Source: Phycisphaera sp. (GTDB lineage Bacteria > Planctomycetota > Phycisphaerae > Phycisphaerales > Zrk34). Taken from it: DNA of 64,000 bases. This document shows positions 33,854-50,825 of the stretch, one piece after another; the first letter of the stretch is position 1; each line of letters starts with the position of its first letter. The notes under the pieces were generated by a model. That model ran no database searches and was not told the origin of the DNA. It saw nothing but the letters and a program-made list of their open reading frames with translations. Location of the stretch: positions 1 through 64,000 of the forward strand of contig WGMA01000030.1 of NCBI GenBank assembly GCA_016125285.1. Direction: 5' to 3'. The position numbers and the translations under genes are program-made.

Positions 33854-33879
33854 GCATCCAGCATCCAGCATCCAGCATC
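33854..33879. repeat. Heptamer tandem repeat (GCATCCA)n
   Basis: Nearly four units of GCATCCA in 26 bp, with related GCTGGAT words at 33800-33832. The TGA stop of the larC gene (33878-33880) overlaps its edge. The repeat lies exactly where a full-length LarC would continue. Confidence 0.75.
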
Positions 33880-34855
33880 ACGCGCGCGTGCCGAGGAACA
33901 GGCGCAGCAGGTTGGGCACGTCGGGGGTGTCGCGGTCGCCCGCGCCGTAGCCGACCTTCTCGACGCGCATCGGCGGCTGGCTGCCGAACTGCGTGGCGAT
34001 CGCCGCGACGATCGCGGCGCCGGTGGGCGTGACGGTCTCGCCAACGCGGTCGACGCCGTGGTGCGGCACGCGTTTGAGGATCTCCGCGGTGGCCGGGGCG
34101 GGCAGCGGCATGTTGCCGTGATCGCACTTCACGAACCCGTGGCCGATCGGCAGCGACGCGCACGACACGGTTTCCACGCCGAGCATATCCAACGCGATCG
34201 CCGATCCGAGCATATCAACGATTGAGTCGACGGCCCCGACCTCGTGGAAGTGGACCACGTCGAGGCTGACGCCGTGCACGTGCGCCTCGGCCTGGCCGAT
34301 CGCGGTGACGATCCCGCGCGCCCAGCCCTTGGCGCGATCGGACGCGTCGAGCGTGTCGATCATCGCCATCATGTCCGTGTAGCCCGTGTGATGCGGGTGC
34401 AGGTGGGCGTGGCCGATGCTGTGTGATCTTGGATTTCGGATTTCGGATTTCGGATTGGAGACGTGGTCATGGTCATGGTCGTGCGAGTGCCCGTGATCAT
34501 GATCGTGGGAGTGCGAATGGTCGTGATCGTGCCCGTGGTCGTGAGCGTTGTCGTGGCTGTGCCCGTGATCGTGGTCGTGCGAATGATGCGCCGCGTCGCC
34601 CACTTCCGCGTTCCGCGTTCCGAGATCCGACTTCCCCACGACCACCTTCAGGTCGACGCCGCGGATCGCGTGGCGATAGGTCTCGCCGACGGTGATGCGG
34701 TAGGGCAGCTTGACCGGCAGCGGGGCGAGCGCGGCGTCGAGGGCCTTGAGGTCGACCCCGAGGTCGATGCACGCGCCGAGGAACATGTCGCCCGCGATCC
34801 CCGCGAACGGGTCGATGTGCAGGTGTTTACCCGATGTGGTGTCGTGTGGTGCCAT
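33878..34855 (-). CDS. larC: LarC1-type nickel insertion protein, C-terminal domain missing
   Basis: 325 residues. The N-terminal motif HIDPFAGIAGDMFLGACIDL and conserved blocks HFHEVGAVDSIVD, TPTGAAIVAAI and VGYGAGDRDTPDVPN identify LarC, which inserts nickel into the pincer cofactor of lactate racemase-type enzymes. Residues ~90-132 are a long His/Asp tract (HDHDHGHSHDNAHDHGHDHD and on), a likely nickel store. It is followed by NPKSEIRNP (134-142), encoded by an inserted ATTTCGG repeat. The protein ends at the LarC1 boundary; the LarC2 domain found in full-length homologs (or made by frameshifting in Lactobacillus) is absent in all frames downstream, where a heptamer repeat overlaps the stop. 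Confidence 0.88.
   Translation of the reverse strand: MAPHDTTSGKHLHIDPFAGIAGDMFLGACIDLGVDLKALDAALAPLPVKLPYRITVGETYRHAIRGVDLKVVVGKSDLGTRNAEVGDAAHHSHDHDHGHSHDNAHDHGHDHDHSHSHDHDHGHSHDHDHDHVSNPKSEIRNPRSHSIGHAHLHPHHTGYTDMMAMIDTLDASDRAKGWARGIVTAIGQAEAHVHGVSLDVVHFHEVGAVDSIVDMLGSAIALDMLGVETVSCASLPIGHGFVKCDHGNMPLPAPATAEILKRVPHHGVDRVGETVTPTGAAIVAAIATQFGSQPPMRVEKVGYGAGDRDTPDVPNLLRLFLGTRA
34425..34459. repeat. ATTTCGG simple repeat inside larC
   Basis: Tandem ATTTCGG units (four, one degenerate) inside the larC coding frame, read as SNPKSEIRNP on the - strand. The same unit recurs at 47597-47630 and, reversed, at 47716-47751. It is placed right after the histidine tract. Confidence 0.8.
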
Positions 34856-34981: not shown

Positions 34982-36163
34982 ATGAACGATCAGCCGAACC
35001 ACGGCCCCGAAGACTCGCACGGCTCGGTCTCGCCGAACCCCGCGCCGCGTCCGCCCGTCAACCCCGGCAACGCCGACGCGCCGCCGCCTCCGCCGCCACC
35101 CCCGCCGCCCGGCTACGGCTACCCGTACCCCGCGCCGCAGCCCGGCGCCGGTCAGCCGCGTGGACTCGTGGCCAACATCTCCAAGCTCGGCGCGCTGCTG
35201 TCCTTCGGATTCGTCATCTTCTTCGCAGGGTTCTATCTCGCGCTGTTCTCGTTCACCTCGAAGACCGGCCCGACCCTCAGCACCTACCGCGAGGGGACCA
35301 CCGACGGACGTATCGCCATCATCCCGATCGACGGGGTGATCATGGGCTCGAAGGTCAGCTTCATCCGCCGCGTGGTCGACCGTGTCGTCGAAGACAAGAC
35401 CATCAAGGCGGTGATCGTCCGCGTCGAGTCGCCCGGCGGAGGCGTGACCGCGTCCGACCAGATCCTGCATCAACTCAAGCGCATCCGCGAGAAGCGCGGC
35501 AAGGACTTCCCCGTCATCGGCAGCTACGGCGCCGTCGCCGCCAGCGGGGGCTACTACGTGTCGTGCCTCTGCGACCCGATCTACTGCGAGCCGACCACGA
35601 TCACCGGTTCGATCGGCGTTATCGGCGAGGTGTTCACCTTCCAGGAACTGCTGGAGGACAAGCTCGGGGTGAAGACCGAGGTCATCACGTCGACCGGCAG
35701 CCCCGAGAAGGACACGGCCAACAACATGTTCCGCACCTGGACGGACAAGGACCGCAAGGTGATGCGGGACATGCTGGACACGATGTACGGCCAGTTCGTG
35801 GACGTGGTGCACGAAAACCGCGGCCGGGTGTTCGCCAAGCGCGAAGACGTGTTGAAGGTCGCCACGGGTCGGATCTACACGGCGAAGGACGCGGTCGGCG
35901 CGGGTTTGGTCGATGAGATCGGCTACCTCGACGCGGTGATCGAAAAGGCCGAGAACATGGCGGGACTGACGAAGGGCGAGGCGCCGGTGGTGGTGTACTC
36001 AGAGCCGGCGACGTTCGGCAGCCTCTTCGGGATGCGCGGGCCGGACAACAACGGCTCGGCCGGCAGCACCCCGCCGCAGCAGATCAACGCCGCGACGGTG
36101 CGTCAGTGGATGACGGAGCTGGGTGTTCCGGAGATGATGTACATGATGCAGGTGGCGCACTGA
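34982..36163 (+). CDS. sppA: Signal peptide peptidase SppA-type protease
   Basis: 393 residues. A Pro-rich cytoplasmic N-terminus ([17 protein letters not shown]) precedes one membrane helix (~70-92), then an S49 protease domain: IIPIDGVIMGSKVS, RVESPGGGVTASDQIL, nucleophile Ser in GAVAASGGYYVS, TITGSIGVIG, and the base Lys expected in TSTGSPEKDTANN. Degrades leftover signal peptides in the membrane. Single catalytic domain, like the Bacillus and archaeal short form. The poly-Pro tail is unusual and would demand EF-P for translation. Own promoter upstream. Confidence 0.92.
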   Translation: MNDQPNHGPEDSHGSVSPNPAPRPPVNPGNADAPPPPPPPPPPGYGYPYPAPQPGAGQPRGLVANISKLGALLSFGFVIFFAGFYLALFSFTSKTGPTLSTYREGTTDGRIAIIPIDGVIMGSKVSFIRRVVDRVVEDKTIKAVIVRVESPGGGVTASDQILHQLKRIREKRGKDFPVIGSYGAVAASGGYYVSCLCDPIYCEPTTITGSIGVIGEVFTFQELLEDKLGVKTEVITSTGSPEKDTANNMFRTWTDKDRKVMRDMLDTMYGQFVDVVHENRGRVFAKREDVLKVATGRIYTAKDAVGAGLVDEIGYLDAVIEKAENMAGLTKGEAPVVVYSEPATFGSLFGMRGPDNNGSAGSTPPQQINAATVRQWMTELGVPEMMYMMQVAH

Positions 36164-46162: not shown

Positions 46163-47635
46163 TCAGGCCAGAATATCGTGTACCACGTTGCCGTGGACGT
46201 CCGTGAGCCTGAAGTCGCGACCCTGGAACTTGTATGTGAGTTTCTTGTGATCGATGCCCAGCAGGTACAGCATCGTCGCGTGCAGGTCGTGCACTTCCGT
46301 CACCTCCTCCACGGCGTTGTAACCGAGCTCGTCGGTGGCGCCGTGGCTGATGCCGCCCTTGACGCCCGCCCCGGCGACGAACGCGCTGAAGCCCTTGATG
46401 TGGTGGTCGCGCCCGTTGCCCTGCGCCATGGGCGTCCGGCCGAACTCGCCGCCCCAGATCACCAGCGTGTCCTCCAGCAGCCCGCGCTGCTTGAGGTCCT
46501 TGATCAGCGCCGCCGTGCCCTGGTCGACGAACTTGGCCGTCTGGAGGATGCCGTTCTTGATCCCGCCGTGGTGGTCCCACCCGCGGTGGTAGAGCTGGAT
46601 GAACCGCACGCCGCGCTCGGCGAGGCGTCGGGCGAGCAGGCAGTTGTACGCGAACGACCCGTCGGCGCCCTTCGTGCCGTACATCTCCAGCGTCTCTTTC
46701 GTCTCGTTGGAGATGTCCATCAGCTCCGGCACGGACGACTGCATGCGGAACGCCAGCTCGTACTGGGCGATCCGCGTGGCGATCTCGGGGTCGTCGTACA
46801 CGTCGTTGCCGATGCGGTTGAGCGACGTGACCGCGTCCACGAGCCCGCGCTGCTGGTCCATCGTCACCCCGCCCGGGCTCGACACGTAGTGCACCGGGTC
46901 ACCGGCCGAGTGGAACTCCACGCCTTGGAACCGGCTGGGCAGGAACCCGCTGGCCCATTGCCGTGACGCGATCGGCTGGGCCTGCCCGCCACCGGCGCTG
47001 GTCAGCACCACGTAGCCGGGCAGTTCCTCGGTCTCCGCGCCCAGGCCGTACAGCATCCACGAGCCCATCGACGGCCGCCCGGGGATCGACGTGCCGGTGT
47101 TCATCACCGTGTGCGCCGGGTCGTGGTTGATCTGCGTGGTGCGCATCGAGCGGATGATGCAGATCTCGTCGGCGACCTCGCCGATGTTCGGCAACGCCGT
47201 GCTGATCTCCTGGCCGCTCTGCCCGAACTTCTTGAACGGGTGCTGCGGCGCGAAGCACTTCAGCGCCTTGCCCTGCAGCTGGGCGATGGGCTGGCCCTTC
47301 GTGTACGACTCGGGCATCGGCTGGCCGTCCATCTCCGCCAGCTTCGGCTTGTGGTCCAGCGTCTCGAGGTGGCTCGGCCCGCCGGCCATGCACAGGTGGA
47401 TCACCCGCTTGGCCTTCGGGGCGTAGTGCAGCGGATTGACCACGCCGGTCCACTTCGGCGGCCGCACCAGCGCGTGACCCGCCGCGCCGTTGCCCGCCGC
47501 CGCGGCGCGCAACAACTGCGGCGACAGCAGCGACGCCAGCGCCGCCGTGCCGATGCCGCTGAGCGACCGGCCGAGGAACGTGCGACGGTAGGGGTTGATT
47601 TCGGATTTCGGATTTCGGATTTCGGATTGGTTCAT
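46163..47635 (-). CDS. Tat-exported DUF1501 protein, paired with PSD1 cytochrome
   Basis: 490 residues. The Tat signal (Arg17-Arg18, RRTFLGRSLSGIGTAALASL) is preceded by NQSEIRNPKSEINP, encoded by an ATTTCGG repeat. The body has DUF1501 (sulfatase-like fold) features: [60 protein letters not shown]. The family has no assigned reaction. It follows the PSD1 gene by ~112 nt filled with two repeats. No other in-frame ATG exists near the 5' end, so the start within the repeat is forced. Confidence 0.9.
   Translation of the reverse strand: MNQSEIRNPKSEINPYRRTFLGRSLSGIGTAALASLLSPQLLRAAAAGNGAAGHALVRPPKWTGVVNPLHYAPKAKRVIHLCMAGGPSHLETLDHKPKLAEMDGQPMPESYTKGQPIAQLQGKALKCFAPQHPFKKFGQSGQEISTALPNIGEVADEICIIRSMRTTQINHDPAHTVMNTGTSIPGRPSMGSWMLYGLGAETEELPGYVVLTSAGGGQAQPIASRQWASGFLPSRFQGVEFHSAGDPVHYVSSPGGVTMDQQRGLVDAVTSLNRIGNDVYDDPEIATRIAQYELAFRMQSSVPELMDISNETKETLEMYGTKGADGSFAYNCLLARRLAERGVRFIQLYHRGWDHHGGIKNGILQTAKFVDQGTAALIKDLKQRGLLEDTLVIWGGEFGRTPMAQGNGRDHHIKGFSAFVAGAGVKGGISHGATDELGYNAVEEVTEVHDLHATMLYLLGIDHKKLTYKFQGRDFRLTDVHGNVVHDILA
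47597..47630. repeat. ATTTCGG simple repeat in the 5' end of a DUF1501 gene
   Basis: Tandem GATTTCG units; on the - strand it codes for SEIRNPKSEIN right after the start ATG. Identical unit to the one inside larC. Confidence 0.8.
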
Positions 47636-47715: not shown

Positions 47716-47751
47716 CAAATCCGAAATCCGCAATCCGAAATCCGCAATCAG
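47716..47751. repeat. ATTTCGG repeat, reversed copy at the PSD1 stop
   Basis: CAAATCCGAAATCCGCAATC-type units; the TGA stop of the PSD1 gene (47748-47750) lies at the repeat edge. Together with the copy at 47597 it forms an inverted pair around the PSD1-DUF1501 spacer. Confidence 0.8.
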
Positions 47752-50700
47752 TTGCGCGTGATTGATTCGTGCATATTGAGGATCGCCCGGGCGACCGTCG
47801 TCCACGCGGCGTGCTCGGACACGTCGAGATCGTTGGGTGTGGGCCACTCGCCGGTGCTGACCAGCTTCTTTGCGGCGTCCTTGTCGGCGGTGTAATTCGC
47901 GCGGTTGTCGGCCAGCAGCTTCTCGAGCACCTGTGTCTCACGGGCCTCGGGTTCGCGTGACAGCACGTGGCGGTACATCCAGGTCAGGCGTGACGCGTCG
48001 TCCTTGCCGCCTTCACGCAGCGCGTGCTCGCTGAACACGCGGGCCGCCTCGACGAACGTCGGGTCGTTGAGCAGCACCAACGCGGCCAGCGGCGTGTTGG
48101 ATCGGGGACGATCCACGGCGCACTCGTCACGCGACGGCGCGTCGAACGCCTTGAGCATCGGGTGCAGGAACTGCCGCTGCCAGTGCGTGTACACGCCGCG
48201 CCGGTAGAGCCCCTCGCCGCGGTCCGGCTGGTACTCGCGCTTGGGGAAGTTGAGGTGGCGGTAGTAACCGGCGGGCTGGTACGGCTTGGCCGAATCGCCG
48301 CCGATCTTGTCGACGAGCAGGCCGCTGATCGCCAGGGCGTTGTCGCGGACGAGCTCGGCGTCGAGGCGGAAGCGCGACTGGCGGGCGAGCAGGCGGTTGT
48401 ACGGATCGACCTCACGCAGGTGCGTCGGCGCCAGCGACGACTGGCGGTACGTCGACGAGGTGACCATGAGCTTGATCATGTGCTTGATGTCCCAGCCGCG
48501 GTCCATGAACTCCACGGCCAGCCAGTCGAGCAGCTCGGGATGCACGGGCGGTTCGCCCTGCGAGCCGAGGTCGTCGAGGTTCTTAGCGATGCCGGCGCCG
48601 AAGTACATCGCCCACAGCCGGTTGACGAACACGCGCGCGGTCATCGGGTTGTCGCGGCTGACCAGCCAGTTCGCCAGGTCCATGCGTGTGGCGCGGCGGT
48701 CGCCCTCGACCTTGATCTGCGGCAGGAAGTGGGGCACGTGCGGCGTGACGATCTCGCCGTCGTCCGACATCCAGTTGCCGCGCGGCAGCACACGCATCTC
48801 GCGCGGCGCCACGGCGATCGTCTCGATCATCTTCCGCGTCGACTTGTTGAGCTTGTCACGCTCCGCCTCCAGCTTCGCCAGATCGGCGCGGCGCGGGTCC
48901 TTGTAGTCGCCCGTCCGGCGGAACGCGTCGAACAGCTTGTTCCGCTGCGCCTCGTCACGATCGCCCGCCGCGACGTTGAGGATCGCCTCCTCATCGGCGC
49001 CGAGCCCCGTGCCGCTCTGCACCGCGCCCGCGTCGGACCAGTACGCCAGCCCGTCGAACTGCGTGAACGCCATGCCGTTGATCGCGTCGCCCGGCTTCAG
49101 GCCCACCTGCTCGAGCGTCGCCTCGAGCTTCACCCACGCGCCCGTGTTGGGCAGGTCGCCCACGCGGTGGTGCTGCGCCTGATCGACCGCGCCGATCCCG
49201 CCGAAGCTGATCTTGTCCTCGCCCCAGAACGCGCGGTGCTCCCACGAGCCGTTGAGGTTGAACTGGAGCATCACCGTCTTCGGCGGGTTCTTCGGGTCGA
49301 GGTACACCCACGCGTAAAGCGTGTTGCCCGCCGCGAGCTTGATCGTGTCCTTCGCGTTGATCACGAAGTGCTGGACGATGTCGTTGCCCTGCTGGCGACG
49401 GCTGACGGTCGCGCCTTCGCGGACCGGGTGCTTCTTGTCGTCCACGTACTTGAAGTCGCCGTTCTTCTGCCCGTCCGGCGTCTTGCGTTCGGTGAACCAC
49501 GCGAAGTCGTGCACGCCGCCCCCGGCCGCCGCCTTGCGCATCGCGTCTTCCCATTTCGCCATCGCCGCGAACTCCTCCGGCGTTGGGTTCTTCAACGCCT
49601 CATTGAGCTTCGCGATCGCGCCGTCCAGCTTCTTCATCTCGGCTTCCTGCTCGAAGCTGGGCACGTCCATGAACGGCCCGAAGTTGCTGCCGCCGTAGAT
49701 GCCCTGCTCCTTGATCCCCGCGAAGAAGCTCGCCATCGAGTAGAAATCCTTGGTCGAGTACGGGTCAAACTTGTGATCGTGACACTCGCAGCAACCCATC
49801 GTCGCGCCCATCCACACCGTCGACACATTGCGGACACGTTCCGCGGCGTACTTCGCCAGGTACTCCTTCGGCTGGACGCCGCCCTCGGCCGACATCATGC
49901 CGAGCCGGTTGTAGCCCGCCGCGACCTTCTGCCACAGCGTCGCGTTCTCGATCAGGTCGCCCGCGAGGTTCTCACGCGTGAACTGGTCGAAAGGCATGTT
50001 CGCGTTGAACGCGTTGATGACGTAGTCGCGGTAGGGCGAGTCGGCCACGTTCTGGTCGCCGTGGTACCCGACCGTGTCCGCGTAGCGCACGAGGTCGAGC
50101 CAGGGCGCGGCCAGGCGTTCGCCGAAGTGGGGCGACGCGAGCAGGCGATCGACGAGCTTTTCGTACGCGTCGGGCGACTTGTCGGCGACAAACGCGTCGA
50201 CCTGCTCCGGCGTCGGCGGCAGGCCGATCAGATCGAAGCTGAGCCGACGGATGAGCGTCACGCGGTCGGCCTCGGGCGACGGACGCAGGTCGTGGCGGTC
50301 CAGCGACGCGAGCACGAAGCTGTCGATCGGGTTGCGTACCCACGTCTTGTTCGACACCGGCGGAGCGGCCATGCGCTTCGGCGGGATGTACGCCCAGTGC
50401 GCCTCCCACTCGGCGCCCTGCCTGATCCACTCCGTCAGCAGTCGCTTCTCGTACGCGTCGAGCACCTTCTCCGATTTCGGCGGCGGCATCAGGTCCTCGG
50501 TGTCCTTCGTCAGGATGCGCGCGACCAGTTCGCTGTCATCGGGCTTACCGGGGTTGATCGCGGAGTACCCGCCCAGGTCGCGCTTCGCCTCTGCCTCGAT
50601 GTCGAAGCGGAGCTTCGCCTTACGCTCGCCCTTGTCCGGGCCGTGGCACTTGTAGCACTTGTCCGAAAGGATCGGTCGGATGTCGCGGTTGAACGAGATG

Positions 50701-50825
50701 TGCTTCGGCAACGGTTTGGCGACCTGCGGCTCGGCGGCCCGGCTCGGGGCGCCGAAAAACGGCACATTGATCGCCGCGGCCATTAACAGCAGTCCAAGCC
50801 CGTGGTTACAACGATTGGTGAGCAT
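47748..50825 (-). CDS. PSD1 cytochrome-like protein (DUF1549/DUF1553), copy 1
   Basis: 1025 residues. Signal peptide, then the haem-binding PSCyt1 part with C57-Y-K-C60-H61 (SDKCYKCHGPDKGERKAKLR), DUF1549 (RRLSFDLIGLPPTPEQVDAF, GATMGCCECHDHKFDPYSTK with a second CxxCH), an inserted lectin-like region (~450-610, LYAWVYLDPKNPPKTVMLQF and GSWEHRAFWGEDKISFG), then DUF1553 (NPMTARVFVNRLWAMYFGAG, SNTPLAALVLLNDPTFVEAA). Abundant in planctomycetes, function unproven. Precedes a DUF1501 gene, its usual partner. Confidence 0.9.
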   Translation of the reverse strand: MLTNRCNHGLGLLLMAAAINVPFFGAPSRAAEPQVAKPLPKHISFNRDIRPILSDKCYKCHGPDKGERKAKLRFDIEAEAKRDLGGYSAINPGKPDDSELVARILTKDTEDLMPPPKSEKVLDAYEKRLLTEWIRQGAEWEAHWAYIPPKRMAAPPVSNKTWVRNPIDSFVLASLDRHDLRPSPEADRVTLIRRLSFDLIGLPPTPEQVDAFVADKSPDAYEKLVDRLLASPHFGERLAAPWLDLVRYADTVGYHGDQNVADSPYRDYVINAFNANMPFDQFTRENLAGDLIENATLWQKVAAGYNRLGMMSAEGGVQPKEYLAKYAAERVRNVSTVWMGATMGCCECHDHKFDPYSTKDFYSMASFFAGIKEQGIYGGSNFGPFMDVPSFEQEAEMKKLDGAIAKLNEALKNPTPEEFAAMAKWEDAMRKAAAGGGVHDFAWFTERKTPDGQKNGDFKYVDDKKHPVREGATVSRRQQGNDIVQHFVINAKDTIKLAAGNTLYAWVYLDPKNPPKTVMLQFNLNGSWEHRAFWGEDKISFGGIGAVDQAQHHRVGDLPNTGAWVKLEATLEQVGLKPGDAINGMAFTQFDGLAYWSDAGAVQSGTGLGADEEAILNVAAGDRDEAQRNKLFDAFRRTGDYKDPRRADLAKLEAERDKLNKSTRKMIETIAVAPREMRVLPRGNWMSDDGEIVTPHVPHFLPQIKVEGDRRATRMDLANWLVSRDNPMTARVFVNRLWAMYFGAGIAKNLDDLGSQGEPPVHPELLDWLAVEFMDRGWDIKHMIKLMVTSSTYRQSSLAPTHLREVDPYNRLLARQSRFRLDAELVRDNALAISGLLVDKIGGDSAKPYQPAGYYRHLNFPKREYQPDRGEGLYRRGVYTHWQRQFLHPMLKAFDAPSRDECAVDRPRSNTPLAALVLLNDPTFVEAARVFSEHALREGGKDDASRLTWMYRHVLSREPEARETQVLEKLLADNRANYTADKDAAKKLVSTGEWPTPNDLDVSEHAAWTTVARAILNMHESITRN

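Follow-up and report, generated by a model that had tools for sequence, protein, structure and literature searches.

The nickel insertase LarC has two halves, LarC1 and LarC2. In a 64,000-nucleotide stretch of a Phycisphaera sp. genome (contig WGMA01000030.1, positions 1 to 64,000; the whole stretch is hereafter the window) a larC gene stops where LarC1 ends. The locus raises the question of whether the LarC2 half has been lost and the protein turned to another use, or whether LarC2 is encoded elsewhere. The features of the locus are:

33854–33879, unstranded: (GCATCCA)3.7 array between convergent genes, overlapping the larC1 stop codon by 2 nt (repeat analysis).
33878–34855, minus strand: larC1, encoding a stand-alone N-terminal half of the nickel insertase LarC, 325 aa (PF01969, TIGR00299, order-wide identity, AlphaFold); its stop codon is 33878–33880.
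34431–34456, unstranded: (GGATTTC)3.7 array, 26 bp, encoding NPKSEIRNP in the linker (repeat analysis).
34463–34588, minus strand: His/Asp-rich linker of LarC1, residues 90–131, 42 aa with 21 His and 11 Asp, predicted disordered (composition, AlphaFold).
34604–34622, unstranded: (CGGAACG)2.7 array before the His tract, which separates it from the (GGATTTC)3.7 array, encoding part of GTRNAE (repeat analysis).
34982–36163, plus strand: divergent neighbour of larC1, conserved beside it across the order, which we take from reading its sequence, not from a database scan, to encode an S49 peptidase (SppA-like).

The larC1 product belongs to the LarC1 domain family. It matches PF01969 over profile positions 1–234 of 375 (273 bits, cut-off 22.1) and the NCBIfam model TIGR00299, nickel_LarC1, with 205 bits (cut-off 90). 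The C-terminus lies three residues past ...VPNLLRLFLG, which is the end of the LarC1 half at PF01969 position 234, and there is no LarC2 domain within the polypeptide. A previous sequence-only reading had described a short LarC ending at the LarC1 boundary, with no LarC2 coding before the next gene, and both points hold. No LarC2 is found in any frame of the window (best tblastn E value 2.7, no HMM match). A LarC2 concealed in another frame, or past a downstream frameshift, was considered and rejected, since no frame contains one and the gap from the stop codon to the neighbouring gene is ~107 bp.

The gene itself is well preserved. Its reading frame is intact with a positive coding score, and its product is 50–72% identical to 14 LarC1 proteins of the order. 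The alignment of 15 LarC1 sequences from the order has dozens of invariant columns, and the LarC1 domain retains its conserved residues. The AlphaFold model has pLDDT mostly above 90 outside the linker, with both lobes at high confidence. A fold search with LarC1 against structures solved up to April 2026 gave no match; the full-length LarC 12BI is matched by sequence search.

A gene that ends at a repeat might instead be a decayed remnant, its 3′ half lost through the heptamer array and the rest on its way out. The array does overlap the stop codon, as had been pointed out (33854–33879 and 33878–33880 share 2 nt), and further arrays lie inside larC1. The end point, however, is common to all LarC1 proteins of the order, most of whose genes lack the GCATCCA repeat. 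The intact frame, positive coding score and strong conservation also oppose decay, as does the intact LarC2 found elsewhere in the genome. Because LarC1 is conserved across the order, the remnant reading is already refuted, and we regard it as scarcely credible.

The heptamer arrays are not due to chance: the window contains four perfect period-7 runs of at least 18 bp, against 0–1 in 20 shuffles. In a genome-wide count that covers one unit, that of the NPKSEIRNP array, GGATTTCGGATTTCGG has 32 copies and its reversed control has 0; this unit recurs across the genome. That a repeat encodes NPKSEIRNP after the His/Asp tract is correct (residues 134–142, 34430–34456); the array at 34604–34622 had been missed. 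In two relatives the LarC1 linker also contains arrays that resemble heptamer repeats but are built of other units, so insertions of this kind are tolerated there. If the array at 34431 changed by one unit, a frameshift would result before the conserved HFHEVGAVDS region, and on/off switching through it, with 3.7 units, is conceivable but unlikely. Heptamer arrays in the window, those of larC1 included, lie at gene ends and in disordered stretches. One at 47597–47628 is in frame at the N-terminus of the minus-strand gene 46163–47635 (MNQSEIRNPKSEINPYRRTFLG), and an inverted one, at 47717–47749, finishes at the stop codon of gene 47748–50783.

The LarC2 half is found on another contig of the same genome. 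A PF01969 search of this genome hits two places, the larC1 locus and G000:C63:109018–109602, where the match is to the LarC2 half. The latter is a complete gene for a protein of ~153 aa, starting MDQPPTQVVEIACNLDD, that scores 146 bits with NF052512, nickel_LarC2, from NCBIfam (cut-off 50). The option that LarC2 is encoded elsewhere, which the sequence-only reading had left standing beside a change of function, thus proves right. The predicted LarC2 structure has pLDDT 95. Its nearest PDB entry is 6BWO, LarC2 of L. plantarum; the predicted fold compares with 6BWO and 6BWQ, also L. plantarum LarC2, at TM 0.80–0.84 (E ~1e-17), and it is weakly like PII/CutA proteins as well. Among 13 split LarC2 sequences of the order, 25 residues are invariant, of which 22 are identical in L. 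plantarum LarC2 by manual count. The gene is divergent to what is presumably tilS and near what is presumably dapF, both named by reading their sequences.

We surveyed 61 genomes around that of the window and found LarC in 16. The two halves are at different places in 14 of the 16, a count that includes one genome (G007, 88% complete) in which both halves are matched in part, at the ends of contigs. Two have LarC1 only (G003, 78% complete; G008, 85% complete). Split LarC1 spans PF01969 from position 1 to ~235–270 and split LarC2 from ~237 to 375. Five genomes have both genes on one contig, ~1.5–3 Mb apart. An assembly or binning artefact was therefore rejected, as single-contig genomes show the identical split. 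Each half has its own neighbourhood: larC1 adjoins the S49-peptidase gene in 16 of 17 other genomes of the order, and larC2 adjoins tilS in 15 of 18. Across the class, LarC occurs in 145 of 297 genomes, and the ten from this order are split. Among the matches listed for other orders of the class, the whole profile (1–375) is in one frame, apart from partial matches, several of them at contig ends. In a sample of the phylum LarC is nearly always fused, and a few matches are partial or in two pieces. The LarC2 of this genome is thus not lost; it is separately encoded, as in nearly all LarC-bearing Phycisphaerales. The window gene is very probably the larC1 of a split, two-gene LarC.

The rest of the pathway to the nickel-pincer nucleotide (NPN) is also present. 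The genome encodes LarB (NF033503, 276 bits; cut-off 175) and LarE (TIGR00268, 300 bits; cut-off 150), the genes lying ~2 kb apart on one contig that differs from those of larC1 and larC2. Both proteins score over cut-off in 14 of the 16 LarC-bearing genomes of the order, missing from G008 and from G002 (91% completeness), and in none of five LarC-less relatives tested. LarC1, LarC2, LarB and LarE are thus, on these profile matches, retained or lost as a set. The earlier reading had said that it would fall if relatives carried the same short form with a working Lar pathway; as far as genomes can tell this is the case, with LarC2 separate and the other pathway genes in place.

LarA, which uses NPN in the lactate racemase system, is not among them. 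Lar_N (PF09861; DUF2088) has no match in the window's genome (assembly 97% complete) or in any tested genome of the family. A profile of both LarA classes of the order finds nothing at E ≤ 0.1 in the window's genome and gives marginal scores only (E 0.02–0.03) in two relatives. A genome search for LarC2, LarB, LarE and LarA, as had been proposed, therefore succeeds for the first three and fails for LarA, and the NPN pathway here is of the orphan type. The second, divergent LarA class (PPDITRLxS ... GQVVPHEVIGMANYTKN) is found at loci L051–L056 in several genomes of the order. It is ~20% identical to ordinary LarA, matches the Lar_N domain only and possibly has a different substrate.

The larB and larE genes (G000:C16, locus L074, 7888–11068) flank a gene for a transglutaminase-core protein; past larE come genes for an LpxR-like protein of the outer membrane and for a protein with an M23 peptidase domain, with no obvious NPN enzyme. 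We considered an NPN client enzyme between larB and larE and rejected it: the intervening gene is transglutaminase-like, and in two relatives (G004 and G007) the spacing is too tight for such a gene.

The His/Asp tract, given before as 40 residues, has 42. AlphaFold confidence is low for most of residues 78–154, so the tract and its flanking heptamer arrays form a disordered linker. At least 8 His in 30 aa occur at this loop in 16 of 18 LarC1 proteins of the order and in 19 of 33 fused planctomycete LarC proteins, but in none of eight split Chloroflexi LarC1 proteins; the His-rich loop is therefore not linked to the split. In some LarC1 proteins of the order (e.g. G036 and G008) the loop is short and poor in His; the tract is therefore dispensable. 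It probably gathers or buffers nickel, as the analogy of His-rich nickel chaperones suggests. In G036 and G025 (L015 and L016) LarC1 has an extra His-rich C-terminal tail where a fused LarC2 would start.

The tract had led to the suggestion of a nickel storage or delivery factor. In its full form this says that LarC1 alone stores or delivers nickel in a role unrelated to NPN, with the tract as reservoir, while the PII-like LarC2 does something else. The length of the tract, the weak resemblance of LarC2 to PII/CutA and the lack of LarA all fit. Against this, the tract is expendable and not special to this LarC1, the LarC1 domain has kept its conserved residues, and LarC2, LarB and LarE are intact, the four genes being kept or lost together across the order. 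We therefore find the suggestion unsupported and quite improbable.

As to origin, the order's LarC1 halves fall into a single group with support 100, and its LarC2 halves into another with support 94; the LarC2 tree of the final comparison excludes one split LarC2 of the order (L123). Since the split sequences are monophyletic in both trees and each half keeps its own conserved neighbourhood, a single division of LarC early in Phycisphaerales is the simplest reading.

Split forms are also found in other lineages. Searching named genomes with the LarC2 profile gives 80 loci: 52 fused, 20 with LarC2 alone within the flank examined and 8 where LarC1 and LarC2 are adjacent but separate frames. Whole-genome searches of ten Chloroflexi with lone or reversed LarC2 place the halves apart in nine; in the tenth (G313) they are adjacent in reversed order. 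Anaerolineae and Gracilibacillus also include cases of unlinked halves, and Verrucomicrobia include cases of the two genes in tandem. In Gracilibacillus massiliensis (L233) larC1 is 19 kb from a stand-alone larC2. The genes around that larC2 look to us, by reading of their sequences, like hexuronate/pectin utilisation genes, which suggests a sugar-acid epimerase as the NPN user there. Methanopyrus 3C19 is a stand-alone LarC2-like structure, and NCBIfam has separate models for LarC1 and LarC2. Taking the Chloroflexi, Gracilibacillus, Methanopyrus and NCBIfam cases together, the LarC split is a recurrent architecture. We found no literature on unlinked larC1 and larC2 in a search over a limited library.

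The Chloroflexi cases allow another origin: instead of arising by fission in Phycisphaerales, both genes could have been taken up together, by horizontal transfer, from Chloroflexi with a split LarC. There too the split genes are unlinked, and a joint planctomycete–Chloroflexi split clade is not rejected for LarC2 (p 0.55). The LarC1 data, however, disfavour such a clade, short of formal rejection (delta lnL 49, p 0.06), and both trees place the split forms of Chloroflexi with the fused forms of Chloroflexi, a placement that points to independent divisions at one boundary. Transfer is thus unlikely, though less so than the storage role. Under fission, LarC, fused in the rest of the class, would have divided once in Phycisphaerales, where its two domains meet, to leave two unlinked genes, larC1 by the S49-peptidase gene and larC2 by tilS.

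LarC1 and LarC2 most likely assemble into one working enzyme. The pair, with CTP, would put nickel into the P2TMN made by LarB and LarE to give NPN, and the His/Asp tract, a variable disordered loop, would probably gather or buffer the nickel. Two points count against this. In L. plantarum, reportedly, only the full-length LarC frameshift product is active, so separate halves need not work, and the search of this genome gave no LarA, which leaves a working pathway here without a known customer. In a whole order, on the other hand, the LarC halves are encoded and passed on separately, and this implies that they are able to function as two subunits. More tentatively, and somewhat short of what we would favour, the whole planctomycete family may make NPN by an obligate two-subunit insertase for an undescribed, non-LarA class of NPN enzyme.

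The dramatic reading, in which LarC2 is lost and a new role gained, is not upheld; what remains of interest is the two-subunit enzyme and its missing NPN user. LarC is credited with both CTP-dependent activation and nickel insertion, and these natural single-domain proteins offer a way to ask what each half does. The genomes with NPN synthesis and no LarA are a clean set for presence/absence comparison in the search for NPN enzymes. In annotation, a short LarC or a lone LarC2 should not be called a fragment.

Several known systems can be compared. Fused LarC, the CTP-dependent cyclometallase of M. thermoacetica, Synechocystis and most planctomycetes, is homologous to both halves over its full length and shares the partners LarB and LarE, but is one protein where this genome has two unlinked genes. 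In L. plantarum larC1 and larC2 are divided at the domain boundary, as here, and joined by ribosomal frameshifting. Those ORFs are adjacent, whereas larC1 and larC2 of the present genome are on different contigs, and so no joined product can arise by frameshift; lp_0106 and lp_0107, the L. plantarum pair, share one UniProt entry, F9UST1 (PMC8305020). Anaerobutyricum likewise has two annotated larC genes (larC1, EHLA_1342; larC2, EHLA_1341) and lar genes scattered in the genome, but its larC1 and larC2 are neighbours (PMC7702098). The orphan pathway of cyanobacteria also lacks LarA and has LarB, LarE and a LarC that is not described as split (PMC11796402). Such pathways are reported for ~15% of genomes, many of them cyanobacterial, and the cyanobacterial larBEC pathway has been shown to make NPN in E. 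coli (PMC11796402).
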